From the NCBI GenBank assembly GCA_013178285.1, contig JABLXD010000013.1:1-48761 (forward strand): a stretch of DNA of 48,761 bases, read 5' to 3'. The notes beneath the pieces were generated by a model. That model was not told the DNA's origin and did no database searches. It saw nothing but the letters and a program-made list of their open reading frames with translations. Numbering within the stretch: position 1 is the stretch's first letter; the number at the start of each line of letters is the position of its first letter. Of this stretch, positions 1 through 17,310 are shown in pieces. Source of the DNA: Methanofastidiosum sp. (GTDB taxonomy: Archaea > Methanobacteriota_B > Thermococci > Methanofastidiosales > Methanofastidiosaceae). The position numbers and the translations under genes were made by a program.

Positions 1-1083
1 AATACTAATACACACGTCGCATTGGATATTATCATTCAAAATAAGTATATTAAGGACGATAACGGACTGCTGGACCTTTTTAATAAGACGGGATATGATA
101 GAAGTCTGCAAGGAATAAAACAAATGATTTATGAGCTCACTCGATGCGGTCTTATCACAAGAAATAATTTCAATGATCTAAGGCCAACTGAAAATGCATT
201 AACTATACCTAAAATCTCAGATAAAAAAAATCAGCCAGATGAATCTGCAATAGAGCAATGTTTAAAGTTAATAGATTACTTAGAGAATAATGAACTTTTT
301 ATTAAGAATACCATCATAGCCTTTTCTAAAAATCTAAAGAACAACAGAGAAATATTAGACTACTTACTAGCTTTAGATGTTAACTTTAAATCTGATGATC
401 ATTCCCACATCCCTGCAATGAAGAATTTTTTAGTATATCTTGGAATCTTAAATGAAACTGGAGATTTTACAAATCTGGGTTCTAAAATTCTTAACAATTT
501 GTTAGTTAGTTATTGGCAAATTGCACCTGGAGAAAATGCAAGACTTTGGCCTGGGATGAAAAGTGGAGAATATGTGGCAGTGGGCTGGAAAAATACCCCT
601 AATCTTTCTAATGTCAAATCCAAAGAAGAGTTATTTCAAATCCTAAAAAATTACAATTTTGGAGATAGTCTTCAGGAGACACAAACAAGTAAATTATGGC
701 AGTTTTTAAAAGAAATTAAAGTAGGTGACAAATTAGTCATCAATAAAGGGAAAAGCAAAATTATTGGAATTGGAGAAGTAATTGGAGATTACTATTTTGA
801 ACAAGCGGCAAGTGAATACAAACATAGAAAGAAAGTAAGATTTACCTGGACTGGAGAAGTTGATGTCCCTTTTCAAGGGAAATTCGGAACTACTTTAGTA
901 GAACTATCTAAAGAGGAATATGATAAACTAACTAGTTACACATTTGATAAGAATTTAGGAGTTACGGGAGTTGTCCAATTACTCCAGTCAAAGAAGCAAA
1001 TCATCCTGTATGGCCCGCCCGGTACTGGTAAGACCTACAAGGCTAGGGAGTATGCAATTGAATTTATATCAAAAAATACGTGA
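1..1083 (+). CDS. McrB-like N-terminal specificity module with P-loop, 5' end outside window
   Basis: The frame is open from the first base of the window, so the true start lies upstream; a TTG at 22 is the first possible internal start. Residues 1-160 are helical with winged-helix character. About 170-300 look like an EVE/PUA-type base-recognition domain (IAPGENARLWPG, then VAVGW, then a VGDKLVI strand) as found at the front of archaeal McrB proteins. The protein ends with KKQIILYGPPGTGKTY and only 14 more residues before TGA at 1081, so it carries Walker A but no Walker B, sensor or arginine finger. McrB proteins normally continue about 250 residues further. It is either a separate subunit supplying a P-loop to the C-terminal half encoded downstream, or a remnant. 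Its P-loop codons (CTG, GGC, CCG, AAG) differ from those of the next gene, which argues against a recent local duplication. Confidence 0.7.
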   Translation, partial: NTNTHVALDIIIQNKYIKDDNGLLDLFNKTGYDRSLQGIKQMIYELTRCGLITRNNFNDLRPTENALTIPKISDKKNQPDESAIEQCLKLIDYLENNELFIKNTIIAFSKNLKNNREILDYLLALDVNFKSDDHSHIPAMKNFLVYLGILNETGDFTNLGSKILNNLLVSYWQIAPGENARLWPGMKSGEYVAVGWKNTPNLSNVKSKEELFQILKNYNFGDSLQETQTSKLWQFLKEIKVGDKLVINKGKSKIIGIGEVIGDYYFEQAASEYKHRKKVRFTWTGEVDVPFQGKFGTTLVELSKEEYDKLTSYTFDKNLGVTGVVQLLQSKKQIILYGPPGTGKTYKAREYAIEFISKNT

Positions 1084-1124
1084 AATAATTTTATGTGTTA
1101 AATATGTTAAGAGTAGGGTATAAT

Positions 1125-1928
1125 ATGAACATTAATAATATTATTGAAAAAGCCAAGGATTTTGAAAAGAACCCCCCGCCTTTCTATAATCCTAATAAGG
1201 CTAAAAATGGAATTGAAGAGTTTACTGCTAAGTTTAATTATGAAAAAATAAAAAATCTTACCTTAGAAGAATATGTTCTCGGAAATAAAAATAAGGATAC
1301 ATTTTCATATTTACTTGAATTCAAAGAACTTCCTGGTGTCAGTATCAAAGGTAATATAGCTTCAAAATTTTATATCTATACTAATGACAAACTATTTCCA
1401 AAGCAAATGTATATGGTTGGCAAAAAATTAAATGTTGACTATAATCAGGCGAAATTAGAATTCAATAAAGTTAGGGATTCACTAGTAAAAATATTGGATT
1501 ACTCAAAACAAGACAATTTTATCGCTATCGATGAACTTGAAATCCTATCTTCAATAGTAAAATCTAAAATTATTTTTATGTACAACTCTGAAAAGATAAC
1601 TACCACAATGTCACCTAAAAGAGTTAAAAAAGCCTGTGAATTTTTTGATTTTGAATTTGATCCAAATCATCCAATAAATTCAAATCATAGATTAGTAAAT
1701 AAAATAAAAAGTATAGAATTTTTTAGTTCATGGAGTAGCTATAAGATAGGTTCATTTCTAAATCATCTGATTAATACAATAGGGCTTGAAGGCCCGACCA
1801 ATAATTTTTGGGAACTATTAGAAAAGAAAAAACAAATTATTTTATATGGTCCACCCGGTACAGGTAAAACTTATTTTGCAAGAGAATATGCACTTAATTT
1901 TATTGAAAGAGGTGATAACAGTGAGTGA
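1125..1928 (+). CDS. McrB-like second N-terminal module ending just after Walker A
   Basis: This is a 267-aa protein if it starts at ATG 1125, preceded by AGGGT at good distance; an in-frame GTG at 1095 lacks such a site. Residues 1-225 form a domain seen at the N-terminus of McrB-like type IV restriction proteins (NLTLEEYVLGNK region), presumably recognising modified or foreign DNA; it is unrelated to the EVE-like domain of the preceding gene. Residues 232-267 carry QIILYGPPGTGKTY and end 18 residues after the P-loop threonine. The next gene continues the McrB fold in the +1 frame with an 8-nt overlap. The protein therefore holds Walker A only. A single-base frameshift in a formerly continuous mcrB is the main alternative, but a good ribosome binding site and GTG start lie exactly at the junction. 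Confidence 0.75.
   Translation: MNINNIIEKAKDFEKNPPPFYNPNKAKNGIEEFTAKFNYEKIKNLTLEEYVLGNKNKDTFSYLLEFKELPGVSIKGNIASKFYIYTNDKLFPKQMYMVGKKLNVDYNQAKLEFNKVRDSLVKILDYSKQDNFIAIDELEILSSIVKSKIIFMYNSEKITTTMSPKRVKKACEFFDFEFDPNHPINSNHRLVNKIKSIEFFSSWSSYKIGSFLNHLINTIGLEGPTNNFWELLEKKKQIILYGPPGTGKTYFAREYALNFIERGDNSE
1911..1916 (+). promoter_or_regulatory. Shine-Dalgarno site deciding the start of the McrB C-terminal half
   Basis: GGTGAT, within the longer AGAGGTGAT, lies inside the last codons of the preceding gene, four bases before GTG at 1921. It matches the archaeal anti-SD core and is the same type of site used elsewhere in the window, for example at 5194, 33320 and 43335. It supports independent or coupled initiation rather than a simple frameshift error. 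Confidence 0.6.
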
Positions 1929-2877
1929 TAATGTAAATGGAAAATTTGATGAATATATGAAAAATGGGCAGATTGAATTTATTACATTTCATCCCTCATA
2001 CTCATATGAAGAGTTTATGGAGGGAATAACTGCCCATACAGAAAAAGAGGGCGTTCCAACAGAAAAAATACAATACAAACTGAAAGCAGGTATTTTCAAA
2101 GAAATGTGTAAAAGAGCTTTGGCTAGCGCCATAGGATATGATCTAAAAATAAATTCTACATGGAATGAAGTATTTGGCGATTATCAAACAAAAATTGAAT
2201 CTGGCAAAGAAATAGACTTTGAAAATGCGAAAAAATATCTTCTTATTATAGATGAAATAAATAGGGGAGACATATCCAAAATTTTTGGTGAATTAATAAC
2301 TCTTTTAGAAAGTGACAAAAGACTTGGATCAGATAATACCCTTGTTGTTAAACTGCCTTATTCAAATGATCTATTTGGAGTTCCACCAAATCTATACATA
2401 ATTGGAACGATGAATACTGCGGATAGAAGTATTGCTCTAATTGATGTTGCCCTTAGGAGAAGATTTGGATTTAAGGAATTAATGCCTGACTTTGAATTAG
2501 TTACAAAATATGTGGAAGAAAAAAAAGATGAATTTGAGGATGGAGTTTATGATTTAGTTACTGATTCTATAGCATGTGTAAAAATAATCAACAAAAGAAT
2601 ATGTGAAGAAAGAACTGTTGGCAGAGATAAACAAATAGGGCATTCTTATTTTTTCACAATTAAGGAAACAAATGATATAATTAGAGTATGGCAAAATGAA
2701 ATACTCCCACTTCTAGAAGAGTACTGCTATGGAAACTATGAGAAGATAAGCGATCTATTGCTCAGAGAAGAATCCAATAATTGGATCAATAAAGTCGATG
2801 GAATAAAAGAGTTTTCTTCTAGCGAAGATCTAAAGAGTTTCTTGAAGGAGATTATAGAATCTGGTAAAAATGAGTGA
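1921..2877 (+). CDS. McrB-like AAA+ GTPase/ATPase C-terminal half (Walker B, sensor, arginine finger)
   Basis: This is a 318-aa protein starting at GTG 1921. It begins inside the AAA+ core, immediately after where Walker A would be: FITFHPSYSYEEFMEGI (about 18-35) is the usual McrB segment downstream of the P-loop. Walker B is LLIIDEINRGD (about 107-117), followed by the McrB signature MNTADRS (about 163) and the arginine-finger region RRRFGF (about 178). No Walker A is present in the polypeptide, so it can hydrolyse nucleotide only with a partner such as the preceding gene product. The mcrC-like gene follows with an 8-nt overlap. In the McrBC family this motor powers translocation and activates the McrC nuclease. 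What is odd is the break between Walker A and the rest of one fold. Confidence 0.8.
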   Translation: MSDNVNGKFDEYMKNGQIEFITFHPSYSYEEFMEGITAHTEKEGVPTEKIQYKLKAGIFKEMCKRALASAIGYDLKINSTWNEVFGDYQTKIESGKEIDFENAKKYLLIIDEINRGDISKIFGELITLLESDKRLGSDNTLVVKLPYSNDLFGVPPNLYIIGTMNTADRSIALIDVALRRRFGFKELMPDFELVTKYVEEKKDEFEDGVYDLVTDSIACVKIINKRICEERTVGRDKQIGHSYFFTIKETNDIIRVWQNEILPLLEEYCYGNYEKISDLLLREESNNWINKVDGIKEFSSSEDLKSFLKEIIESGKNE

Positions 2878-4141
2878 CGAAATAGTTACAATTGAAGAGT
2901 ATAGGCAAAAAGAAATAGAAAACTTTGATGTGTCTAGAGACTGGGACTACTTAGAAAGCGATTTCTTCAAATATAAAAATAAATTGCCATATGATTTATT
3001 TTTTAATAAAGAAAAAAAAGTTTGCATTAAGAATACCTCTTATTCTGGCATAATCCAACTTCAAAACGTCAGACTCCACTTTTCTACAAAAGTAAAAACA
3101 AATCTTTTTTACATGCTGAGCTTCTTAAAATCTGAAGAAGAACTACTAATGGATCCTGAGATATCTATCGAAATAAAAGAAGGGGTAAATTTCTTTGATA
3201 TTATCGGAAGACTTTTTTTAAATGAATTAGAAGCGATAGTAGAAAAAGGCCTTCTAAAAAGTTATGTTGAAAAACACGAAAATCTAAACTATCTAAAAGG
3301 AAAACTTTCTATTAAGGGCCAGATGAAAAATCACATTGATAGTAGGCCCAATTTTTCATGTATTTATGATGATTTGACATTTAACAATTTAGAAAATCAG
3401 ATTGTTTTGAGAAGTCTAAATTTATTGACTCCGTTAATTAGGTTTAATCAGCCCTTAAAATCTGAACTTATACGATATGAATTTATTCTAAAGGATATAG
3501 TAGATTTAACTAACGTTTCTCCGTTAGACTGTGATAGTATCTGTTTTAATAGACTAAATGATTATTATTCTGCAATAATACAGTTTTCAAAATTGATTTT
3601 AGAAGAGAAGTTCATTAGATCTATACATAAGGGAGAGTCTAGAGGATTTAATTTCATTGTGAATATGAATAAAGTTTATGAAGATTTCATCACTGAGATT
3701 GTAAAAGATGTGGTAAAAAAGGAATTTTCTGATTATTCTATAACAAGCCAAGCAAGTTTTTCCAGCCTTGTCAAAGAAAGAAAAATATTGACAAGGCCAG
3801 ACTTAGTACTAAGAAAAGGCAGGGACAACTATCCATTGATCCTCGACACAAAGTACAAACGAGAGGATAAGAATGCTGACTATTACCAAATTATATCATA
3901 TTGTCTTGCAATCCCTAACGCTAAAGCAGCTTGTCTTATTTATCCGCAAACAGAAAGTGATATCGATAAGAAACTTATTTTGAGGAGAGATATTACTACT
4001 CCATATGGGAAAAATATAATCTTATACACAAGAACTGTAGATTTACATATTGAAAAAGATATGGAGTTTGGAGAATACATACAAAATATAAAAGCTCAGA
4101 TAAAAGAAATTATTTTAGATTGCCTAAAAGAACAAGAGTGA
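2870..4141 (+). CDS. mcrC: McrC-like PD-(D/E)xK nuclease subunit of type IV restriction system
   Basis: This is a 423-aa protein, normal for McrC. The ATG at 2870 overlaps the end of the McrB C-terminal gene by 8 nt, indicating translational coupling. The N-terminal half (about 1-200) is the McrC bridging region that contacts the McrB ring. The C-terminal half holds the nuclease: TRPDLVLRKG (about 307-316) with the metal-binding Asp, then LILDTKYKR (about 322-330), giving the D...DxK arrangement. The catalytic motif is intact, so the nuclease is expected to be active if the split McrB motor assembles. The cluster ends here; the next gene is convergent on the minus strand. Confidence 0.85.
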   Translation: MSDEIVTIEEYRQKEIENFDVSRDWDYLESDFFKYKNKLPYDLFFNKEKKVCIKNTSYSGIIQLQNVRLHFSTKVKTNLFYMLSFLKSEEELLMDPEISIEIKEGVNFFDIIGRLFLNELEAIVEKGLLKSYVEKHENLNYLKGKLSIKGQMKNHIDSRPNFSCIYDDLTFNNLENQIVLRSLNLLTPLIRFNQPLKSELIRYEFILKDIVDLTNVSPLDCDSICFNRLNDYYSAIIQFSKLILEEKFIRSIHKGESRGFNFIVNMNKVYEDFITEIVKDVVKKEFSDYSITSQASFSSLVKERKILTRPDLVLRKGRDNYPLILDTKYKREDKNADYYQIISYCLAIPNAKAACLIYPQTESDIDKKLILRRDITTPYGKNIILYTRTVDLHIEKDMEFGEYIQNIKAQIKEIILDCLKEQE

Positions 4142-5154: not shown

Positions 5155-5204
5155 AGTGTGAAATACGATTTGTATATATACAATTAATTTTCTAGGTGAG
5201 ACAA

Positions 5205-6143
5205 ATGGAAAAATTGACTTTTCTTGAACTTGCTAAGAAAGTACTATTTGAAGAAAATAAAGCGTTGACTGCTGAAGAGATATGGAAGATAGGAGATGAA
5301 AAAGGATACGCTTCTCTTGTTCTAACAAAAGGCAGGACTCCATGGAGAACTATGGGCGCTCAAATATATGTAAGTATGAAAAATGATGAAAATACCCCAT
5401 TTATTAAAATGGGCACAAGTCCTCAAACGTTTAATCTGAGAGCTAACCTTAGTCAAAAGGAAATAGAAGAATTAGATAATAAACCAATAGGATTTATCAA
5501 AGAAACTGAAAAAAAACTCGCTTTTACAGAAAGAGAATTGCACCCTTTTCTTACATATTTTGTCCATACTTATTATAGGATCTATACCAAAACTATCTAC
5601 CATGAGAAATCAACTAAACAAAAGTACGCACAATGGCTACACCCTGATATAGTTGGAGTCTATCTGCCTTTAGGAGAATGGAAGAAAGAAGTAGTGGACT
5701 TGTCAAAAGCCATAGGTACACCTTATGTGAGATTTTATTCTTTTGAGCTGAAAAGAGAATTAAATTTCTCTAATTTAAGAGAAGCATTTTTTCAAACAGT
5801 TTCCAATTCTTCTTGGGCAAACAATGGATATCTAGTTGCAGCTGAAATTGATGAAGACCCAGATTTTTTATCAGAACTTAAAAGATTATCAATGTCATTT
5901 GGTATCGGTGTGATTAAAATAGACATCGAATCACCTGACGATAGCGAAATACTTTTTCAACCAAGATTTAATACAGACTTGGATTGGGATGCAATCAATA
6001 AACTGGCAGAAGAAAATATTGATTTTAAGGATTTCTTGAACAGAGTTACAATTGATCTAGCCAAGAGTGATGTTTACAATGAAAAATATGATAAAGTCTA
6101 TATTTTAGATGCACTTATTAAACTAATAAAAAAGAAACATTAA
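5205..6143 (+). CDS. HARE-HTH domain protein leading the type I R-M operon, possible nuclease or regulator
   Basis: This is a 312-aa protein. ATG 5205 is chosen because AGGTGAG (5194-5200) ends four bases upstream; the GTG at 5196 lies inside that site. Residues 1-75 form a HARE-HTH winged-helix domain (FLELAKKVLFEENKALTAEE, then KGRTPWRTMGAQIY). The C-terminal part has alternating strands and helices resembling the COG2958-like proteins often found near restriction genes: KYAQWLHPDIVGVYLPLG (about 140), then VRFYSFELKREL (about 174-185). The D...ExK-like spacing of HPDIVG and FELKRE could be a PD-(D/E)xK-type site, but this is inference. It lies 35 nt before hsdM and may control, target or add a nuclease to the R-M system. 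Confidence 0.7.
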   Translation: MEKLTFLELAKKVLFEENKALTAEEIWKIGDEKGYASLVLTKGRTPWRTMGAQIYVSMKNDENTPFIKMGTSPQTFNLRANLSQKEIEELDNKPIGFIKETEKKLAFTERELHPFLTYFVHTYYRIYTKTIYHEKSTKQKYAQWLHPDIVGVYLPLGEWKKEVVDLSKAIGTPYVRFYSFELKRELNFSNLREAFFQTVSNSSWANNGYLVAAEIDEDPDFLSELKRLSMSFGIGVIKIDIESPDDSEILFQPRFNTDLDWDAINKLAEENIDFKDFLNRVTIDLAKSDVYNEKYDKVYILDALIKLIKKKH

Positions 6144-6178
6144 TAATCTACCTGATTTTGAGTTTATGGAGTGATACA

Positions 6179-7690
6179 TTGGCCTTAGACATAAAAACAC
6201 TTGAAAACTGGCTCTGGGAAGCAGCATGTAAGATCAGAGGAGAAATAGATGCTCCAAAATTCAAAGATTTCATTCTACCCATAATTTTTCTAAAGAGATT
6301 ATCTGATGTTTTTGATGATGAAGTTAATAAGCTCGTTGAAAGCTATGGCAATAAAGAACTGGCCCTAAAATTAATTGAAGAAGATCACGGGCTTGTTAGA
6401 TTTTATCTTCCAAAGGAAGCTAGATGGGATTATATTTCTAAGCTAACAACAGACGTCGGTGAAAATCTTACAACTGCAGTAAAGGCAATTGCAAGAGAGA
6501 ATCCAAAACTTCAAGGTGTTATAGACTCAAAGGATTTCAATGAAACTGCTGCAGGCCAGCGTGTCATAAGTGAAGACAAGCTTAAGTCACTAATAGATGT
6601 GCTAGGAAGGCATCGGCTTGGCCTAAAAGATGTTGAGCCAGATATCCTTGGAAGGGCATACGAATATCTCTTGAGAAAATTTGCAGAGGGCAGTGGTCAG
6701 AGTGCAGGAGAGTTCTATACGCCACGAGAAGTGGGGGTCCTTATGGCCCATATACTTGACCCAGAGCCAGATGTGAGGGTATATGACCCATGTTGCGGAT
6801 CAGGCGGACTTCTAATCAAATGCTATCTTAAATTTAAGGCCAAAAATGATGAATCAAAAACTTTAAGATTTTATGGGCAAGAGATACTTCCTTCTACATT
6901 TGCAATGGCAAAAATGAATGTCTTTATTCATGACATGGAAGCAGACATATCTCTTGGAGATACTATGCACAACCCTGCCTTTACAACTTCTGATGGGTCT
7001 CTTGATACCTTTGACATAGTAACAGCAAATCCAATGTGGAATCAGAAGTTTGATCAACCTACCTATGAAAACGATCCATTTGAAAGATTTAGCCTTGGAT
7101 TTCCTCCAACAAGTAGCGCAGACTGGGGATGGATACAGCACATGTATTCCTCATTAAACGAAAAAGGAAAAATGGCCGTTGTCCTTGATACAGGTGCAGT
7201 TTCTAGAGGTAGCGGAAATCAGGGAAGAAATAGAGAGCGAGACATAAGAAAAGAGTTTATTGATAGGGACTTAGTCGAAGCGGTATTCCTTCTCCCAGAC
7301 AATTTATTCTATAACACAAGCGCCCCAGGTATAATCCTTGTAATGAATAGAAAAAAGAAAAGACCAAATGAGATTTTACTAATTAATGCTTCAGATAAGT
7401 TCTCAAAAGGAAGACCAAAAAACTTTATTGATGAAACTACGTATGTTCCCTTTCTTTCAAATATATACCATAACTGGGTTGAAGAGGAAGGAGTTAGTAA
7501 GATCATAACTAAGGAAGAGGCAATAAAAAATGACTACAATCTAAGCCCTTCAAGATATGTTTCAAAATCAAACGGAAATGAGGCCTTATCCGTAGAAGAT
7601 GCTTATGTCCTCGTTAGTGAAGCAGAGGAAGAAAGGCAAGAGGCTGATAAAAAACTTAGAGAGGTATTGGATAAGCTGGGGCTTGAATAG
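6179..7690 (+). CDS. hsdM: Type I restriction-modification methyltransferase subunit M
   Basis: This is a 503-aa protein. TTG 6179 is chosen because GGAGTGAT (6168-6175) sits three bases upstream; an in-frame TTG at 6158 has no such site. The N-terminal helical domain (DFILPIIFLKRLSDVFDDE) is typical of HsdM. The SAM-binding motif is DPCCGSGGLL (about 202-211) and the adenine N6-methylation motif is NPMW (about 283), a variant of NPPF. It partners with HsdS to methylate adenine in a bipartite target and with HsdR to restrict unmethylated DNA. It is followed directly by hsdS with no spacer, so M and S are probably made in step. The gene looks intact. Confidence 0.95.
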   Translation: MALDIKTLENWLWEAACKIRGEIDAPKFKDFILPIIFLKRLSDVFDDEVNKLVESYGNKELALKLIEEDHGLVRFYLPKEARWDYISKLTTDVGENLTTAVKAIARENPKLQGVIDSKDFNETAAGQRVISEDKLKSLIDVLGRHRLGLKDVEPDILGRAYEYLLRKFAEGSGQSAGEFYTPREVGVLMAHILDPEPDVRVYDPCCGSGGLLIKCYLKFKAKNDESKTLRFYGQEILPSTFAMAKMNVFIHDMEADISLGDTMHNPAFTTSDGSLDTFDIVTANPMWNQKFDQPTYENDPFERFSLGFPPTSSADWGWIQHMYSSLNEKGKMAVVLDTGAVSRGSGNQGRNRERDIRKEFIDRDLVEAVFLLPDNLFYNTSAPGIILVMNRKKKRPNEILLINASDKFSKGRPKNFIDETTYVPFLSNIYHNWVEEEGVSKIITKEEAIKNDYNLSPSRYVSKSNGNEALSVEDAYVLVSEAEEERQEADKKLREVLDKLGLE

Positions 7691-8974
7691 ATGGAAAGAA
7701 TAATTTCTCAAGATTTCAAAGAAACTGAAATTGGACCTTTACCTAAAGAATGGGAAGTTGTGAGATTAGAAGAAATAGCATCTATAAGAAATGAAACGAT
7801 ACTCCCCAAATATTCATTAAATGGAATATATGTTGGATTAGAACATATTATTCCAAGTCAAATAAAAATGAATAATTGGGGAAACTCTTCTGAAGTTAAA
7901 AGCACTAAAAATATTTTTTATAAAGGAGATATTTTATATGGCAAATTAAGGCCATATTTAGACAAGTCAGTTATATGTGATAGGAAAGGCATCTGCTCAA
8001 CAGATATAGTTGTATTAAAGCCGAATACTAATATTATCGATAATATATTCTTAGCTTATTTTATCCATCATGATTTTTTTATTAGATATGCCATAAAGAC
8101 CATGACGGGAGTTAATCACCCACGGACTTCATGGTCTAAATTAAAACATCTTTCAATTCCACTTCCTCCACTCCCTGAACAAATAGCAATAGCCAATGTG
8201 CTTTCTACAGTTCAAGAAAGCATAGAGAAAAATGAAGCTGTAATCAATTCTACAAAAGAACTCAAGAAATCTCTGATGAATCATCTTTTTACTTATGGCC
8301 CAGTATCGGTAAGTGAAGCAGAAAATGTAAAAATAAAGGAAAGTGAGGTAGGGCTAATACCTGATGATTGGGAGATTGTTAGACTTGGGGATATATTTGA
8401 AATACAACAAGGCATTACACTTTGTCGCGAGTCAAGTCCAGGCAAATACTTAAGGCCTTTTTTAAGAACTTCAAATGTTTTCTGGGGCAAAATTGATTTG
8501 TCTATCTTGGATAGTATGTATTTTTCTGAAAAACAGCTACAATCTCTTATTTTAAAATCTAAAGATTTGCTCATTTGTGAAGGAGGGGACATTGGTAGAA
8601 CAGCAATGTGGAACGAACAAATATCTGAGTGTTGCCATCAAAATCATTTACACCGATTAAGGGTAAAAAATGGCCTGAAAATAAAATCAGAATTTTATAT
8701 GTATTGGATGCAATTTGGGATGTTAATGAGAGGATTATACTCTGAGGAGGGTAATAAAACTACAATACCAAATCTGTCACGTTCTAGATTAAGTAATTTC
8801 ATTATTCCACTTCCACCTCTTCCAATCCAGAAACAAATAGCTGATATCCTTTCAGAAATTGATCGTAAAATAAAAGCAGAAGAAAATAAGGCCAAAGCCT
8901 TAGAAAAGCTGTTCCAGTCTATGTTAAATGATCTGATGACTGGAAAGATTAGAGTAGGGGGGGAGGTAGCCTGA
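7691..8974 (+). CDS. hsdS: Type I restriction specificity subunit S
   Basis: This is a 427-aa protein beginning at the base after the hsdM stop. It has the two-fold HsdS layout. The first target-recognition domain (about 15-155) ends in PLPPLPEQIAIANVLS and a coiled-coil spacer (about 165-200). The second domain starts with GLIPDDWEIVRLGDIFEI (about 220) and ends in PLPPLPIQKQIADILS (about 372) with a second helix. Each domain reads one half of a split DNA target. The two recognition domains differ in sequence, so the target should be asymmetric. Both conserved linkers are intact, so the subunit should be functional. Confidence 0.95.
   Translation: MERIISQDFKETEIGPLPKEWEVVRLEEIASIRNETILPKYSLNGIYVGLEHIIPSQIKMNNWGNSSEVKSTKNIFYKGDILYGKLRPYLDKSVICDRKGICSTDIVVLKPNTNIIDNIFLAYFIHHDFFIRYAIKTMTGVNHPRTSWSKLKHLSIPLPPLPEQIAIANVLSTVQESIEKNEAVINSTKELKKSLMNHLFTYGPVSVSEAENVKIKESEVGLIPDDWEIVRLGDIFEIQQGITLCRESSPGKYLRPFLRTSNVFWGKIDLSILDSMYFSEKQLQSLILKSKDLLICEGGDIGRTAMWNEQISECCHQNHLHRLRVKNGLKIKSEFYMYWMQFGMLMRGLYSEEGNKTTIPNLSRSRLSNFIIPLPPLPIQKQIADILSEIDRKIKAEENKAKALEKLFQSMLNDLMTGKIRVGGEVA
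8962..8967 (+). promoter_or_regulatory. Consensus Shine-Dalgarno site supporting a CTG start for hsdR
   Basis: GGAGGT lies in the last codons of hsdS, three bases before CTG at 8971, which overlaps the hsdS stop as CTGA. No ATG, GTG or TTG occurs in the hsdR frame between the upstream stop at 8950 and ATG 9091, yet conserved HsdR sequence is encoded in that stretch. Confidence 0.65.
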
Positions 8975-11877
8975 CAACTGGGGCTGAAAGGCCATCTGTT
9001 CAGAGGCCATTCATAAAATATGCAGTAGAGTCTGGATGGGAATACTTAGCTCCAGAAGAAGCAGAAGCCCTTAGAAATGGTAAGTCTGGTATGATCTTAA
9101 GAGATATTTTTATTGATCAGCTTATCAAACTTAATCCCGATTCTATCACAAGAGAAAATGCTAGGGAGCTAATAAGAAAGCTAGAGCAGCTTCAGCCAAC
9201 AATTGAAGGAAATCTAAACGCCTGGGAACATTTGAAAGGACTAAAGACTGTATTTGTTCAGGAAGAAAAACGTGAGAAAAATATCAAGTTTATAGATACT
9301 AAAGATATCAATAACAATAAGTTTCACATCACAGAAGAGTATGAATATACAAATGGCAAGTATAGAATAAGGCCCGACATCATCCTTTTCATAAACGGCT
9401 TTCCAGTCGTGATTATCGAGGCAAAAGGCCCTTATGTTAAGGAAGGAATTACTAAAGCGTTTAAGCAGATTAAAAGATACCACAGAGAAGGGCCAGAACT
9501 TATGGCAATCCTCCAAATATATTCACTTACTCATCTTATCAGGTATTTTTACAGCCCTACATGGAATATCTCTGAAAAAGGTCTTCTTAACTGGAAAGAC
9601 GAAAAGAAAGGAAACTTTGAAGAGATTGTTAAGGCATTTATTGATAGGGCCCATATTTCCAAAGTAATTTCTGACTTCATTTTATTTTCAAGATCTGATG
9701 ACGAGCTAAAGAAAGTTGTCATGAGGCCACACCAGATGAGGGCAGTTTCAAAGCTAGTTGAAAGAGTCTCTGACCCAAATAAAAAGCGTGGTCTCATCTG
9801 GCACACTCAGGGATCAGGTAAAACATACACAATGATCCTAACTGCTAAAGCACTGTTAGAAAATCAAGGGCTTCAAAATCCAACTGTTTTAATGCTTGTA
9901 GATAGAAATGAGCTTGAATCACAACTTTTTGGAAATCTCTCATCTATAGGTATAGATTACTTGGAAGTTGCAGAAAGCAAGGATCATTTAAGGCGCTTAT
10001 TATCTGAAGACAGAAGAGGTCTAATAGTTTCGATGATCCACAAATTTGAGGGTATGCCAGAAAACATAAACAAACGAGGCAATATCTTTGTTTTGGTGGA
10101 TGAAGCACACAGGACTACAGGCGGAAAGCTTGGAAACTATCTGATGGGAGCCCTTCCCAATGCAACTTATCTTGGATTTACTGGAACTCCAATTGATAGA
10201 ACGTCTCACGGGTCAAGTACATTTATTACATTTGGAAAAGATGATCTACCAAAAGGTTACCTCGATAAATACGGCATAGCAGAATCAATAGATGATGGCA
10301 CGACTGTGCCATTAAACTATACTTTGGCCCCAAATAAACTCCTCGTAGATAGGGAAGTTCTTGAAAAAGAGTTTCTTGATCTAAAGGAGGCTGAAGGGTT
10401 AAGCGATATAGATCAGCTTAATAAGATCTTGGAGAGGGCCGTCACTCTAAAAACAATGATGAAATCTCCTCAAAGAATAGATGAAATTGCAAAGTATGTT
10501 GCCATGCACTACAAAGACTACATAGAGCCTATGGGGTACAAGGCATTTCTTGTTGGAGTTGATAGAGAAGCATGCGCCTTATACAAATCTGCCTTAGATA
10601 AATATCTCCCAAAAGAATATTCTAGCGTAGTTTATAGCCCTGCGCAAAACGATAGTGAAGAGCTATCAAGATACCACCTCAGCACAACAGAGGAAAAAGA
10701 GATAAGAAAGTCATTTAGATCATCTGAAAAGCTACCAAAGATATTGATTGTGACTGAAAAGCTTTTGACAGGTTTTGATGCACCTATCCTTTACTGCATG
10801 TACCTAGATAAACCGATGAGGGATCATGTTTTGCTGCAGGCTATAGCGAGAGTCAATAGGCCTTATGAGGACAAAAATGGAAAGAAAAAAAGGTCCGGAT
10901 TTGTTTTGGATTTCGTTGGGATCTTCTCAAATCTAAAGAAAGCTCTAGCATTTGATGAGACGGACATTACTGGAGCAGTTCATGACATAAAAACGATAAA
11001 AGACCACTTTATTAAATTGCACAAAGAGCTCAGTGAAAAATATCTATTAATTGGGAAAGGTTTGTCAGGGGATAAAAAGACTGAAGCAATAATAGATCAT
11101 TTTCTTGATAAGAATGCAAGAGAATCCTTCTACAAAGAGTATAAGGAGCTTGAAACATCATATGAAATACTATCCCCAGACTCATTTTTAAGGCCATTTA
11201 TCCAGGACATGATAGAGCTCACACGAATTTATGAGATTGTTAGAGAGATGTACGAGCCTCATGTGCCAATTGATAAAGAGATTTCTAGGAAAACGATGGA
11301 GCTTGTCCAAGCCAACACTTCTTCTAGCGATGTAAGGGGCGGATTTGATATATATGAAATCAATAGTGATACTATTGAAAAGATAAAAAAGGAAAAGAGA
11401 CCAGATAAGATTAAGATTTTTAACACTTACAAATCTCTTGATTTATTCATTGGAAAAAATGTTCAAGGCTCTCCATACCTTCTTTCTATTGGGCAGAAGG
11501 CAGAGGAGATAGTCTCCCACTATCTTGAAAGACAAACGGAAACAAAAGAGACTCTTGATGGGTTATTGAGACTTACAGAAGAGATAGAAAAGGCAGAAGA
11601 AGAGAAGGAAAAACTAAAGATGCCACTTGAAATATTCTCTGTTTACTGGATACTTAGGGATAAAAAAATAAATAATGCTGAAAAGCTCTCTTGGGAGTTA
11701 AAAGATACATTTGAAAAATACCCTTCATGGAAGGAAAGCGAACAACATGAGAGGGAGATAAGAAAAGCGATATATCAGATGCTAATCCATGGAGGCATAG
11801 AAGATCCAAAGGAGCTAAATAGCCTTGCAAAGGAAACTATGAACCTTCTAAAAGGTGTACCAAATGATAACACGTGA
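8971..11877 (+). CDS. hsdR: Type I restriction endonuclease subunit R, probable CTG start
   Basis: This is a 968-aa protein if it starts at CTG 8971. The 40 codons before ATG 9091 encode a typical HsdR N-terminus (ERPSVQRPFIKYAVESGW, then a helix ending NGKSG), so the ATG start would truncate it. The nuclease domain carries RPDIILFINGFPVVIIEAKG (about 134-153), the PD...ExK site. The translocase has Walker A QGSGKTYT (about 280), VDEAHR (about 376), GFTGTP (about 400) and a helicase C-lobe with TGFDAP and QAIARVNRP. The C-terminal helical region is complete. It cleaves unmodified DNA after ATP-driven translocation, with HsdM and HsdS. The CTGA overlap with hsdS indicates coupling and perhaps low expression of R. 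Confidence 0.93.
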   Translation: MTTGAERPSVQRPFIKYAVESGWEYLAPEEAEALRNGKSGMILRDIFIDQLIKLNPDSITRENARELIRKLEQLQPTIEGNLNAWEHLKGLKTVFVQEEKREKNIKFIDTKDINNNKFHITEEYEYTNGKYRIRPDIILFINGFPVVIIEAKGPYVKEGITKAFKQIKRYHREGPELMAILQIYSLTHLIRYFYSPTWNISEKGLLNWKDEKKGNFEEIVKAFIDRAHISKVISDFILFSRSDDELKKVVMRPHQMRAVSKLVERVSDPNKKRGLIWHTQGSGKTYTMILTAKALLENQGLQNPTVLMLVDRNELESQLFGNLSSIGIDYLEVAESKDHLRRLLSEDRRGLIVSMIHKFEGMPENINKRGNIFVLVDEAHRTTGGKLGNYLMGALPNATYLGFTGTPIDRTSHGSSTFITFGKDDLPKGYLDKYGIAESIDDGTTVPLNYTLAPNKLLVDREVLEKEFLDLKEAEGLSDIDQLNKILERAVTLKTMMKSPQRIDEIAKYVAMHYKDYIEPMGYKAFLVGVDREACALYKSALDKYLPKEYSSVVYSPAQNDSEELSRYHLSTTEEKEIRKSFRSSEKLPKILIVTEKLLTGFDAPILYCMYLDKPMRDHVLLQAIARVNRPYEDKNGKKKRSGFVLDFVGIFSNLKKALAFDETDITGAVHDIKTIKDHFIKLHKELSEKYLLIGKGLSGDKKTEAIIDHFLDKNARESFYKEYKELETSYEILSPDSFLRPFIQDMIELTRIYEIVREMYEPHVPIDKEISRKTMELVQANTSSSDVRGGFDIYEINSDTIEKIKKEKRPDKIKIFNTYKSLDLFIGKNVQGSPYLLSIGQKAEEIVSHYLERQTETKETLDGLLRLTEEIEKAEEEKEKLKMPLEIFSVYWILRDKKINNAEKLSWELKDTFEKYPSWKESEQHEREIRKAIYQMLIHGGIEDPKELNSLAKETMNLLKGVPNDNT

Positions 11878-12575: not shown

Positions 12576-14168
12576 ATGTCTACTTCAAATAATACTAATA
12601 ATAAAGAAGATATTTCTTTTTTTAAGAGATTTATTGATTACTTATTTAGAGATAAGTTAGAGTATGGAATATTGTTTATAGGTTCAATTTTAATAATGAT
12701 TTTACCAGTTTTTTTTCTAAATCTACTTTTAAATATTAATACTAACAAAGAAATTCTAAATACAATAGTCCAGATATTAGCAACTATTTTTGCAATTTCA
12801 ATATCCTTGACTATCCTTCTAGTGCAAAACATCTCGAAATATATAACCCCACTAATAATAAAATCATACATTAGACGAAGTTACATTGTTGGTCTTTTAT
12901 TAACATATTGTATTTCTATCTTAGGAATAACGATTTTTTCAATGACCGACCTATCAAATAGTAAATTTACTTATTATATATCCTTCCTAGCACTACTGTG
13001 GTCTTTAGTTTATGTAGTTTCATATTTATTTTTTATGACAAATAACTTTAGAATTACAGATGTGGTAAACTGGGTTTCTAATAAAATTCCTACAAAATAT
13101 ACCAACGAGATAATTAAAAACGATATATTCAATGAACTTGAAGAAATCATACTTAAAGCTGTAGATAATAATGATTTAAAAGCATTTGAAAAATCAATAG
13201 AATGTCTATATGCTAAATATAGAGATATAATAGAATCCATAGACAAAATTGAGATATGTGATGATTCAGATAGTATCGATAGATTTCAAAAAATGAATGA
13301 CTTTGATACTTATTTTATCAAAATTGATCGTTTAATTTGGGCAGAAGTAAAGAAAAATAATAATGACCATATGATTATGGTTTACCTAGGAGAAATAAAC
13401 TCGTGTTTTCAACAAATCTTGAAAATAAAACTAACGGAAAAATATACCACTCTAATTTTTTCATTTACCGATAATTTCAAAGATGCAGGTTTTAAAATAA
13501 TAAAAGAAGGATTATATCTTATTAATCGATACGATGTTTTTCTAAGAAAATATATGATTAATTTATTAAAAAATATTGATAAAATGCCCCAAAGTGAAGC
13601 TCTTTTTAGACAAAAAGAAATTTATGATATATTTATAGATTTATTGAAACATTATGAAAACTTGTCCATTAGATCCTCAGATGATAACAAAATGGAAATA
13701 ATTATAATGGCTAAATCTAATTTAACAGAATTACTTCGCAGTGTTATTACGAATAAAAAAGGCGATTTGAGAATAGATTTAGTAGAAAAAATAATAGATA
13801 GTTTAAGGATTATCCATATAGAATGTTTAAAAAATAACATGAACTTAGGATTTTTTTATTTCTATAAAGCACCTCACGGTCCTTCATACTTGTTTAGAGG
13901 AATAAAAGTAGATATTAACGACATATTACCAATTATAATCAAAAAATATTGTGATTCTCTTATTATGTCGGTAGAAAAGGGACATGAAATATACATTGAT
14001 GAACTAAAAATGATTGCTAAAGAGCATTTGGGCAATAATCCTGAGATAAAAATAATACTGACTGATTGTTGTGTGAAATTAATGAATTTATCCAAAAATA
14101 AAAAAGAAATCAAAGAGGTCTTAGACTCCATAACTCATTATTCTAGGCGTACACAAGATTTTGAATGA
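12576..14168 (+). CDS. Four-helix membrane protein with large cytoplasmic domain, unknown
   Basis: This is a 530-aa protein. There are four predicted membrane helices: about 29-52 (YGILFIGSILIMILPVFFLN), 63-87 (QILATIFAISISLTILLVQN), 103-124 and 130-153. The second helix with FAISISLTILLVQ recalls DUF2254-type membrane proteins, but similarity elsewhere is not evident. Residues about 160-530 form a Lys/Ile/Asn-rich, mostly helical cytoplasmic part with no catalytic motif I can name. The gene is very AT-rich and lies in the accessory island between the type I system and a Prim-Pol helicase, which suggests horizontal transfer. A membrane effector of a defence system is one possibility, but this is unproven. 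Confidence 0.65.
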   Translation: MSTSNNTNNKEDISFFKRFIDYLFRDKLEYGILFIGSILIMILPVFFLNLLLNINTNKEILNTIVQILATIFAISISLTILLVQNISKYITPLIIKSYIRRSYIVGLLLTYCISILGITIFSMTDLSNSKFTYYISFLALLWSLVYVVSYLFFMTNNFRITDVVNWVSNKIPTKYTNEIIKNDIFNELEEIILKAVDNNDLKAFEKSIECLYAKYRDIIESIDKIEICDDSDSIDRFQKMNDFDTYFIKIDRLIWAEVKKNNNDHMIMVYLGEINSCFQQILKIKLTEKYTTLIFSFTDNFKDAGFKIIKEGLYLINRYDVFLRKYMINLLKNIDKMPQSEALFRQKEIYDIFIDLLKHYENLSIRSSDDNKMEIIIMAKSNLTELLRSVITNKKGDLRIDLVEKIIDSLRIIHIECLKNNMNLGFFYFYKAPHGPSYLFRGIKVDINDILPIIIKKYCDSLIMSVEKGHEIYIDELKMIAKEHLGNNPEIKIILTDCCVKLMNLSKNKKEIKEVLDSITHYSRRTQDFE

Positions 14169-14403: not shown

Positions 14404-17310
14404 TTAATATAAATTTGGCCTAAAGCTATCCCTCATCCTTTCAAGTTTATCATTATCAATTTCAATTCCATCATAGTATCTGCCGTTGTGATCTCTTGAT
14501 CTTTTGATTCCTATCTGGGCAAGTCTTCTTCCAAATACTCTGTTTGGAATTGGATTTATTTTTACAAAGCCGCAATACTCTTCATAGATCTGGTAAAGCT
14601 CTCCAGTCTTTGTTTTTCCTAGAGTTTCTGTTGTGCAAATATCTTCCAAAAACTCCTTTATTGGATCCATCTCTTCCTCATATTCTTTTGTTGCAAGTTC
14701 TACTGACTTTGGAGTTTTTAGTCCTTCAGATTGCCATCTTCTGCATCCTTCAAGTGCCCAGTTCAAAATGCCTGGGAGCTCCGCCTTTAGTTTTTTACCA
14801 AGTTCCTTGTCCTTCTTTTCTTCAGGAATTTTAACATTAAACGGTATGAGTCTAATCCTCCTCCATATCGCATAGTCACCACCCTTGATTATCGGCTTAT
14901 TATTGGCAACTAGCCAGACCTTGAAGTTTGGCAGAAACTCAAAATCTTCGGAATACAAGAATCTGGCCTTAATCGTATCCTCACCAGTTACCTGTTTAAC
15001 AAGGCTTTCTGCAAGCTGCTTTCCCTCCTCAATTTCTATCGTGCTCACAAGCCTAGATCCTTTGAGCCTTGCAAGGTCATTTCTAGGACCAGAATCGTTC
15101 TTTCTAACTGTAAAAGTTGAAAAGTCAGTCTGCTTTGCATAATCATCAAGTAAGCCTTTTAGAACATTCATAAAGGTAGATTTCCCGTTTTGGCCCCCAC
15201 CATAAAGAAAGATAAGTATTTGCTCACTTGTATCTCCTGTGAGGCTGTATCCAACTAGCTCCTGGATGTAAGAAATTAGTTCCATATCTCCTTCAAAAAT
15301 TTCATGAAGGAAATTCTCCCACAAAGGACATTTTGCCTCAGAATCATAGACTACATCGACAATTTTTGTGATATAGCTATCTTTAGAATGTGTTTCATCA
15401 AACTCCATTGTCTTTAGATTGATTGTTCCATTTCGAACATTTAGAAGAAACAGATCTTTATCAAGATCATCTGGAGTTATAGGCACCATAGCCATTGTAG
15501 CGTTTACCATTGCATTTAATCTTGGCTCCATCTGAGATGTCAACGCCCAGTTGGATAACTTTCTCTGATTTTCTAGGTACGGCTCCATAGAAGCCTCAGA
15601 AAAAATAAATCTTGCAACTTCCATAGCTATGAGCTTAATCTTTTTTATGGAGTCTTCTTCCCATCTCTCCCCGTTCCATATGTACCATCGTCCAAGAGGG
15701 CTGCAATACCTTATAGTTTCGCCATAATATTTCACCATGCGCTCTGCATTTCCCATATCACTCAAAGTGAAAAAACTCTTTTGAAAATCTGTAGTTATTT
15801 TCGATACCTCTTTTTCTGGCAAAGGCTCTTGCATTCTAACTTGGTTTATTGCTAGGAGTGTAGCTCTGACATGCTCTGGATCAAGGCCGATGTTTCTTAA
15901 ACTTCCAGATATTGATGTTAAAGCCTTGTTTCTCTCACCCTGCTTTATCTTGCCTTCGAATATATTTGGCTTACTTCTAAGCTTCTCCTTGAAGGCTTCA
16001 ACTAGCTCATTAGGCATCTCAGCTATTTCTGTTTCAAGTATGTGATTAATCCACCTATACTCTTTTCCGCTAGGGTGTATGCTTGGGGGTGCTACTATAA
16101 GGCCCCCTTCGCCTCTTATGTCGATATCAGGATATATCCCAATATGACTGCCCCATCTGTCTGTGTTTTTAAAATAGTAGTGTTTTCCTCTTGTTGACTT
16201 TGTTACTGCTGTTAATGGCATTTCCTTGTTGTACAGTATTTCTAATGATCTTTTACCCTGCTCTCCGTCCACATCGACTACTACTAAATCATTTATTTCT
16301 CCAGTTATAATCCCAATATTTGCTTCAGGTTGTTTTGTCCACCAAGAAATGACATCCTCCCTTCTTGCCCTCTCTTTCTCATACCTTTCCCATTTGATAA
16401 TTGGGAATTTATCACGGGGCACTAGAGGCAAAATGTTTAATCCTGCATCATAATAGGTCAAAGCCCAATCCATTAGTGTCTTTGGACCGGAAACTGCATC
16501 TTTTACGACTGCATTTTCGATAAGAATCTCGTAGGTTCTTTTTGGTATCTTTCCAATATCTCCTTGTTTATAAGGTCCATAAACTTTTAGATCATCTCCA
16601 TAAAAGCTAGGTGCATCCTTCAAGAATACAACTTCCTTAAGATATATTTTTTGGGCCAGTTCATCAATTAGAGGATAGTTTAACCTAAGTGATAGGGTCA
16701 GGATAGTTTTTGGTACTTTCTGATTTCTATAAATTATTGGAGAATTCCTGAACAAAAAATCAACGGCCTTATCTTTTGAAATTGTCCTATGGACATGATG
16801 CCACCCATCTCCATCTTTGTGTACAATCTTTAGTACCGGCGTGAATATTTTTTCGTAGATTAGTTCTAAGAGGATAATACTTACTCTTGCAAGCTGATTT
16901 ATCTCCCAATCTAAAGTGACTAGTTCGATAGAAGTTGGCTGCTGCCCGTTTGAAGCTATATCAAAACTTTCTAGCATGGCCAAGTGAAATCCCTTAAGAA
17001 AGAATAATCTTTCCATCGGTGTTTTTGGCCCTAAATTTAGGGCATCTAGATTCTCATATACAAGTACGGCATTGTTTAGGTCAAGATATTGAAAACGCTT
17101 ATCCTTTGCACACGCCCTAAGATCTTCAAGAAATTTTTTTTCTCTATCTTCATTAGTTATCATGGGATAGTCTAAACAAGTATGAGAAACTGGATAATTA
17201 CTTGTGTACTCTAGATATTCTTGGATGTCTGTGTCATCATAGTAGATATCATGAATTATATCTTCATGCTTAACAGTTCCACTCTTCTCCCAATAAGAGA
17301 ACAGTAACAT
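14404..17310 (-). CDS. Prim-Pol and D5-type replication primase/helicase of an integrated element
   Basis: This is a 968-aa protein starting at ATG 17310 with AGGTGG six bases upstream. Residues 1-275 form a helical region I do not recognise. About 280-430 is a bifunctional primase/polymerase (Prim-Pol) domain: YYDAGLNILPLVPRDKFPI, the metal-binding VVDVDG (about 344-349) and TRGKHYYF (about 373-380). Then follows a primase C-terminal linker, a D5 N-terminal domain (PLGRWYIWNGERW) and an SF3-type helicase with Walker A GGGQNGKSTFM (about 700), TIEIEEG and ANNKPIIKGGDYAIWRR. The C-terminus holds a winged-helix part. Such proteins initiate replication of plasmids and viruses of archaea and bacteria. 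No integrase, capsid or other element gene is near, so this is probably a relic or a minimal integrated plasmid next to tRNA-Leu. Confidence 0.88.
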   Translation of the reverse strand: MLLFSYWEKSGTVKHEDIIHDIYYDDTDIQEYLEYTSNYPVSHTCLDYPMITNEDREKKFLEDLRACAKDKRFQYLDLNNAVLVYENLDALNLGPKTPMERLFFLKGFHLAMLESFDIASNGQQPTSIELVTLDWEINQLARVSIILLELIYEKIFTPVLKIVHKDGDGWHHVHRTISKDKAVDFLFRNSPIIYRNQKVPKTILTLSLRLNYPLIDELAQKIYLKEVVFLKDAPSFYGDDLKVYGPYKQGDIGKIPKRTYEILIENAVVKDAVSGPKTLMDWALTYYDAGLNILPLVPRDKFPIIKWERYEKERARREDVISWWTKQPEANIGIITGEINDLVVVDVDGEQGKRSLEILYNKEMPLTAVTKSTRGKHYYFKNTDRWGSHIGIYPDIDIRGEGGLIVAPPSIHPSGKEYRWINHILETEIAEMPNELVEAFKEKLRSKPNIFEGKIKQGERNKALTSISGSLRNIGLDPEHVRATLLAINQVRMQEPLPEKEVSKITTDFQKSFFTLSDMGNAERMVKYYGETIRYCSPLGRWYIWNGERWEEDSIKKIKLIAMEVARFIFSEASMEPYLENQRKLSNWALTSQMEPRLNAMVNATMAMVPITPDDLDKDLFLLNVRNGTINLKTMEFDETHSKDSYITKIVDVVYDSEAKCPLWENFLHEIFEGDMELISYIQELVGYSLTGDTSEQILIFLYGGGQNGKSTFMNVLKGLLDDYAKQTDFSTFTVRKNDSGPRNDLARLKGSRLVSTIEIEEGKQLAESLVKQVTGEDTIKARFLYSEDFEFLPNFKVWLVANNKPIIKGGDYAIWRRIRLIPFNVKIPEEKKDKELGKKLKAELPGILNWALEGCRRWQSEGLKTPKSVELATKEYEEEMDPIKEFLEDICTTETLGKTKTGELYQIYEEYCGFVKINPIPNRVFGRRLAQIGIKRSRDHNGRYYDGIEIDNDKLERMRDSFRPNLY

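Follow-up and report, generated by a model that had tools for sequence, protein, structure and literature searches.

Can the GTPase motor of a restriction system be divided between genes, such that its Walker A motif arrives on a different chain from the rest of the nucleotide-binding domain? This question is raised by the first genes of a 48,761-nucleotide stretch of archaeal DNA from Methanofastidiosum sp. (contig JABLXD010000013.1, here C13, of the 2.1 Mb draft assembly GCA_013178285.1; hereafter "the window"), which begins at contig base 1. Two consecutive genes each end shortly after a P-loop and are followed by a gene for an McrB-type AAA+ protein devoid of Walker A and by a gene for McrC. 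We consider it likely that these genes encode an McrBC-type (type IV) system with a naturally split AAA+ GTPase, in which interchangeable sensor proteins bring Walker A on a tag of ~36 residues. From this gene layout, which was directly observed, we infer that the separate chains would assemble into an active motor.

A sequence-only reading of the window had described two adjacent genes with unrelated N-terminal domains that stop 14 and 17 residues after GKTY, and a downstream gene with Walker B, MNTADRS and an arginine finger yet lacking a P-loop. The open reading frames (ORFs), a motif map and BLASTP, which detected no similarity between the N-terminal parts of ORF1 and ORF2, bear out this description (Table 1). 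Specifically, ORF1 ends in GPPGTGKT-YKAREYAIEFISKNT and ORF2 in GPPGTGKT-YFAREYALNFIERGDNSE, the stops lying 15 and 18 residues past GKT, respectively; the start codon of ORF1 is out of sight because the window opens at the first base of the contig. The first sensor gave a marginal match to the EVE domain (PF01878; E=5.4e-5, 23.7 bits versus a gathering cut-off of 23), which suggests that it may read modified bases. The second matched the PADLOC profile of the defence protein PD-T4-1 (E=3.9e-22) within residues 32-225 of the translation from its possible GTG start, yet only over profile positions 25-213 of 383; the C-terminal part of PD-T4-1 is absent, and the tag stands in its place. Its homologues are confined to one same-genus genome (L016 below; 71% identity over the sensor), with no match on viral contigs or phages and a single plasmid match at 30%, and because homologues are so few, its fold was modelled poorly. 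The motor half matched the AAA_5 profile at positions 65-139 only and the NCBIfam McrB model with E=1.8e-34, under the equivalog cut-off. Thus, no single chain of this system contains the whole AAA+ GTPase domain, Walker A being on ORF1 and ORF2 and the remainder on ORF3, yet the window has two other hallmarks of McrBC type IV restriction, namely a McrB-type AAA+ protein with MNxxDRS (here MNTADRS) and a McrC partner with PF10117 and PD-(D/E)xK motifs.

Table 1. Position of the split McrBC genes and their motifs in the window.
Feature	Position	Strand	Description
Sensor gene 1 (ORF1), 5' end cut by contig edge	1..1083	+	ORF; EVE + P-loop tag
Tag 1 (alpha0-beta1-Walker A-alpha1)	967..1074	+	P-loop GPPGTGKT 1012-1035
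Sensor gene 2 (ORF2)	ATG 1125..1928	+	PD-T4-1-like N-terminal domain + P-loop tag; GTG 1095 possible start
Tag 2	1803..1910	+	P-loop 1848-1871
Shine-Dalgarno-like AGAGGTGAT	1908..1916	+	Ahead of motor gene, within gene 2 end
Motor half (ORF3)	GTG 1921..2877	+	McrB AAA+, helix before beta2 to C terminus; no Walker A
Walker B IIDEIN of motor half	2245-2262	+	Motif map
MNTADRS of motor half	2410-2430	+	Motif map
RRRF of motor half	2455-2466	+	Motif map
GHSY of motor half	2638-2649	+	Motif map
McrC (ORF4)	2870..4141	+	PF10117 E=7.8e-49; PD-(D/E)xK motifs intact
McrC PD-(D/E)xK motifs	RPD 3794-3802, LDTK 3842-3853	+	Motif map

Searching genome contigs with the motor half as query provided 80 McrB loci. 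Among these, the three-gene layout, which the sequence-only reading had proposed to seek in other genomes, was present in five further assemblies of archaea and bacteria: Methanoperedens (L009), Syntrophobacterales (L011), KSB1 (L012), Methanomethyliaceae (L014) and Methanofastidiosia (L016). In each of them, two P-loop-carrying genes lie upstream of a motor gene without a P-loop, accompanied by McrC; all long ORFs are intact and every motor motif is kept. The second sensor gene and the motor gene overlap by 8 bases in the window and L016, and are separated by 2 (L009), 9 (L012), 28 (L011) or 68 (L014) bases elsewhere, with purine-rich sites similar to that of the window ahead of the motor start in L009, L012 and L014. 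Recurrence with such different junctions upholds the earlier view that the two stops reflect neither random decay nor error. Besides, when ~1.05 Mb of the fetched McrB locus DNA was scanned for ORFs of at least 50 amino acids ending no more than 40 residues from a P-loop, these were confined to the split operons, with none at the ~70 unsplit McrB loci, so a chance stop after the P-loop is excluded. One tagged sensor escaped the scan pattern, its beta1 reading IIYYG: L015 (Methanosalsum natronophilum AME2, not titled a metagenome-assembled genome, MAG) has one truncated sensor, with 14 residues after GKT, and then a complete McrB. L010 and L013 carry continuous McrBs, that of L013 being a sensor related to the one of L015 fused to the motor.

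In a genome-wide tag search, both tags of each split operon scored E<1e-18 (tag 1 of the window: best match, E=2.5e-22) and the next matches, continuous clade members aside, ~1e-10 or weaker; the split genomes contained no further tag genes. Rescue by a continuous McrB encoded elsewhere in these genomes was considered and rejected, as a search of them returned no close motor relative in unsplit form. The split layout is rare: motor-profile searches of samples of 394, 34, 297, 300 and 82 genomes taken around the known cases revealed no more split operons, viral contigs contained only distant relatives, and plasmid matches to the motor, which were not checked for a split, all stayed below 60% identity. 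In the plasmid collection, NZ_CP084075.1 of Fusobacterium vincentii shows a 44% McrB motor match at 571489-572160 with no annotated gene, likewise not checked for a split. At another contig start (L025, 3-1349), a motor half is fused to an EVE-like N-terminal part, and its P-loop lies off the contig or on another chain.

What do the tags have in common? All 13 can be aligned along 36 residues, with the consensus LLxxKKQIILYGPPGTGKT[YF]x[AT][RKQ]xxAxxF, and contain the helix before beta1 (alpha0), beta1, Walker A and alpha1. Twelve form the C terminus of their protein; the remaining one, in L016, is N-terminal, ahead of an EVE domain (Pfam 9.8e-13, 48.8 bits). In KSB1, an otherwise intact McrBC operon encodes a protein of 62-66 amino acids (L012, 1466-1666) that is nearly tag only. 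Pfam identified EVE sensors in the window, L015 and L016, and EVE-like ones were recognized in L009, L011 and L014 by PADLOC PDC-S02 profiles, which also match the EVE region of the window; PD-T4-1-like sensors occur in the window and L016. L014 (3448-4905) encodes an unexpected sensor candidate, a P-loop-tagged protein with a DUF2461 domain (E=3e-19). Tagged genes number exactly two per complete split operon, and L009, L011, L014 and L016 combine one EVE-type sensor with one of another kind, such a pairing not being shown for L012. Since each complete operon has two tagged genes, mostly EVE-type plus other, the two sensors of one operon may work together rather than as alternatives. The idea of a modular system whose sensors complete the motor by association is supported, and the earlier description of the sensors as "alternative" may need revision.

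Purifying selection has long acted on both tags of a split operon, since they differ strongly at synonymous sites (pS 0.68-0.96) and little at non-synonymous ones (pN 0.04-0.27). In the window, pS ranges from 0.83 to 0.96 by stretch length, so that the differing P-loop codons noted earlier amount to synonymous differences near saturation. A recent origin of the two P-loop segments of the window by duplication was rejected on this ground and for want of a direct DNA repeat. Over the 13 residues after GKT, tags are more alike within than between operons: only one in 720 possible pairings of the six split operons was as good (one in 120 when L016 was left out), and the dipeptide following GKT[YF]x, at positions 3-4, is identical within each operon (7/7). 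Although sensor 2 is 71% identical between the window and L016, its alpha1 residues differ, each matching its own operon partner. Such matching fits adaptation of the tags to a shared motor, or else local exchange between tags.

As for the site of the break, the distance from the P-loop to FHPSYSYEEF in the fetched McrBs is 22-58 residues, in one case 98, and 176-192 in twelve archaeal proteins that carry an EVE-like domain in one chain (EVE by Pfam in L023). This insert, which separates the Walker A helix from the remaining GTPase, was observed in L017, L018, L019, L021, L023, L024, L026, L027, L034, L035, L036 and L039. Specificity-domain insertions into the McrB GTPase domain are known (Bell et al. 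2024, PMC11090510). The split falls where the archaeal McrBs have their EVE-like insert and, because these one-chain inserts sit there, the McrB fold tolerates interruption at this site. Reading ORF2 into ORF3 by a single four-base step yields a 583-residue protein whose AAA+ part, like the motor half, has Thermococcus gammatolerans McrB (TgMcrB) as its best match in both sequence (phmmer 1.8e-67) and PDB fold (Foldseek 5.3e-25). AlphaFold2 predicted a complete McrB AAA+ core for this fusion, with blocks mostly at a predicted local distance difference test (pLDDT) of 94-98 and the break at residues 262-266, in the loop between alpha1 and the next helix. When the motor half was modelled alone, beta5 was lost and residues 161-190, which include MNTADRS and RRRF, dropped to pLDDT 51-67. 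In the AAA+ sheet, strands follow the order 5-1-4-3-2; the loss of beta5 is thus expected, as beta1 of the tag would be its neighbour.

How might such a motor work? On docking, the tag would provide the motor half with the central strand and the helix that it lacks, and a nucleotide site would form only with a sensor bound. In TgMcrB, Lys221, Thr222, the base-stacking Trp223 and upstream guanine-reading residues lie N-terminal to the break, whereas Walker B, NxxD, His501 and the arginine finger lie C-terminal to it (PMC7680126). Because the site residues fall on both sides, each nucleotide site would by homology need three chains: a sensor chain for the P-loop and for the aromatic residue that stacks on guanine, a motor chain for Walker B, NxxD and the histidine facing the base from the opposite side, and a neighbouring motor chain for the arginine finger. 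An aromatic residue is retained at the Trp223 position of the tags, and GHSY of the motor stands where the alignment puts the His501 region. Different sensors could then share one hexamer, and a single translocating McrB-McrC nuclease would be driven by marked DNA bound to any, or to all, of these sensors. That the motor is completed by association agrees with the selection on the tags, their matching within operons, the near-stand-alone tag of L012 and the relocated tag of L016. More tentatively, the portable tag might represent a new assembly principle for AAA+ machines, in which a ring subunit exists only with its sensor bound and nuclease firing depends on coincident detection by two different sensors in one hexamer, a possibility that we regard as rather doubtful at present.

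In the motor tree, all split motors form one clade together with the continuous L010, L013 and L015 (support 100/100), in which both forms are intermixed and three changes are required, as a single split with two re-fusions or as repeated splitting. The sequence-only reading had taken a continuous mcrB in related genomes as a sign against a genuine split; such relatives exist, yet the split recurs, and judging from these same-clade continuous McrBs the split and fused forms interconvert. Between the window and L016, the motors share ~51% and the McrCs 33% identity, so parts were either exchanged or diverged at different rates. Several points weigh against a naturally split motor. Besides the unsplit members within the clade, a strict single origin of the split was weakly rejected, the split members not forming one clade (approximately unbiased test, p=0.043). 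Nearly all loci stem from MAGs, and the comparisons rest on seven operons, among which L016 has two tags with near-identical alpha1-coding DNA, such that recombination may contribute to their likeness. Moreover, the fused model covalently forces proximity of the two parts, and the tag being a central sheet strand, its docking would require an open or part-folded motor half.

In a different account, the arrangement is a by-product of recombination: sensor-plus-P-loop cassettes inserted within the conserved P-loop region would have left older sensor genes truncated past Walker A, the tags being scars or donor cassettes without a docking function. In L015, a truncated sensor indeed lies directly upstream of a complete McrB, and a related sensor is fused to the motor in L013; sensors also move between systems, given the higher identity of sensor 2 than of motors and McrCs between the window and L016, and the L016 tags, as mentioned, hardly differ in their alpha1-coding DNA. 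However, the last sensor is still separate in six loci without a complete close motor, tags were retained despite saturated synonymous change, and a scar does not readily account for the nearly sensor-less tag gene of L012, which leaves us to consider this account unlikely. L015 would also suit a regulatory role, since a tagged sensor beside a complete McrB has no motor to complete and its P-loop piece could inhibit or regulate, e.g. by competing within the full McrB ring; yet the fully split genomes lack a complete close motor relative to be regulated, and we give this idea very little credence.

The two remaining accounts concern the gene junction and the integrity of the DNA. Genes 2 and 3 of the window overlap in different frames and one shift would restore a complete McrB, so recoding by frameshift or read-through could produce a fused protein at least part-time. 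As a general mechanism, programmed frameshifting was rejected because junction spacing differs between operons; in addition, no common slippery site was seen, several motor starts have strong ribosome-binding sites of their own, and recoding would be of no help to the upstream sensor gene, making it improbable here, too. That the genes are functionless remnants of a broken mcrB, through decay or assembly error, might be suspected from the contig edge at base 1, the draft state of the genome and the intact continuous relatives. Against this stand the same split with intact ORFs and motifs in five independent assemblies and the conservation of the tags under selection, so that we hold it for highly improbable.

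The split McrBC genes are directly followed, at 5196-11877 of the window, by a HARE-HTH protein and then a complete type I restriction-modification set (HsdM at 6158, HsdS at 7691, HsdR at 9091). Beside these restriction genes is an ORF of 530 amino acids with no Pfam match at 1e-5 (12576-14168, + strand). On the opposite strand, 14404-17310 encodes a 968-residue primase-polymerase/D5-type helicase with a GINS-like segment, of a kind frequent in integrated archaeal elements.

If our interpretation holds, the locus encodes a natural split AAA+ motor that receives its Walker A strand and helix in trans, from interchangeable adaptors. One nuclease motor could then serve several detectors, a plug-in form of aiming, with sensor occupancy as a precondition for nucleotide binding. 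It would offer a testable case of a P-loop NTPase domain cut through its central sheet and still working, and the tag of ~36 residues would be compact enough for building switchable ring motors.

In the open-access literature, we found no description of a split McrB or of Walker A provided in trans, and the McrBC papers found treat McrB as one chain. The McrBC systems of T. gammatolerans (6UT3-6UT8) and E. coli K-12 resemble that of the window in their McrC partner, in the NxxD motif (MNTADRS in the motor half) and in modification-reading N-terminal domains. The motif NTAD also sets the motor apart from the CoCoNuT branch of McrBC, which is defined by NxD instead of NxxD (PMC11090510). While known McrBs unite Walker A with all other parts, including one sensor, in a single chain, the window places Walker A on separate sensor chains, with two or more sensors per motor; the insert-bearing archaeal McrBs are interrupted at the same site, yet in one chain and without separate tag proteins. 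BsuM (ydiR-ydiS-ydjA) and LlaJI are multi-gene McrBC relatives that, like the window, have extra genes beside McrB-like and McrC-like ones; unlike in the window, a P-loop is taken to be retained within their McrB-like subunit. A mechanistic analogy is offered by the Rad50/SMC ATPase heads, in which an N-terminal and a C-terminal lobe, contributing Walker A and Walker B, respectively, come together as one head; these lobes, however, have an ABC-type fold and belong to the same chain, joined by a coiled coil, without exchangeable sensors.
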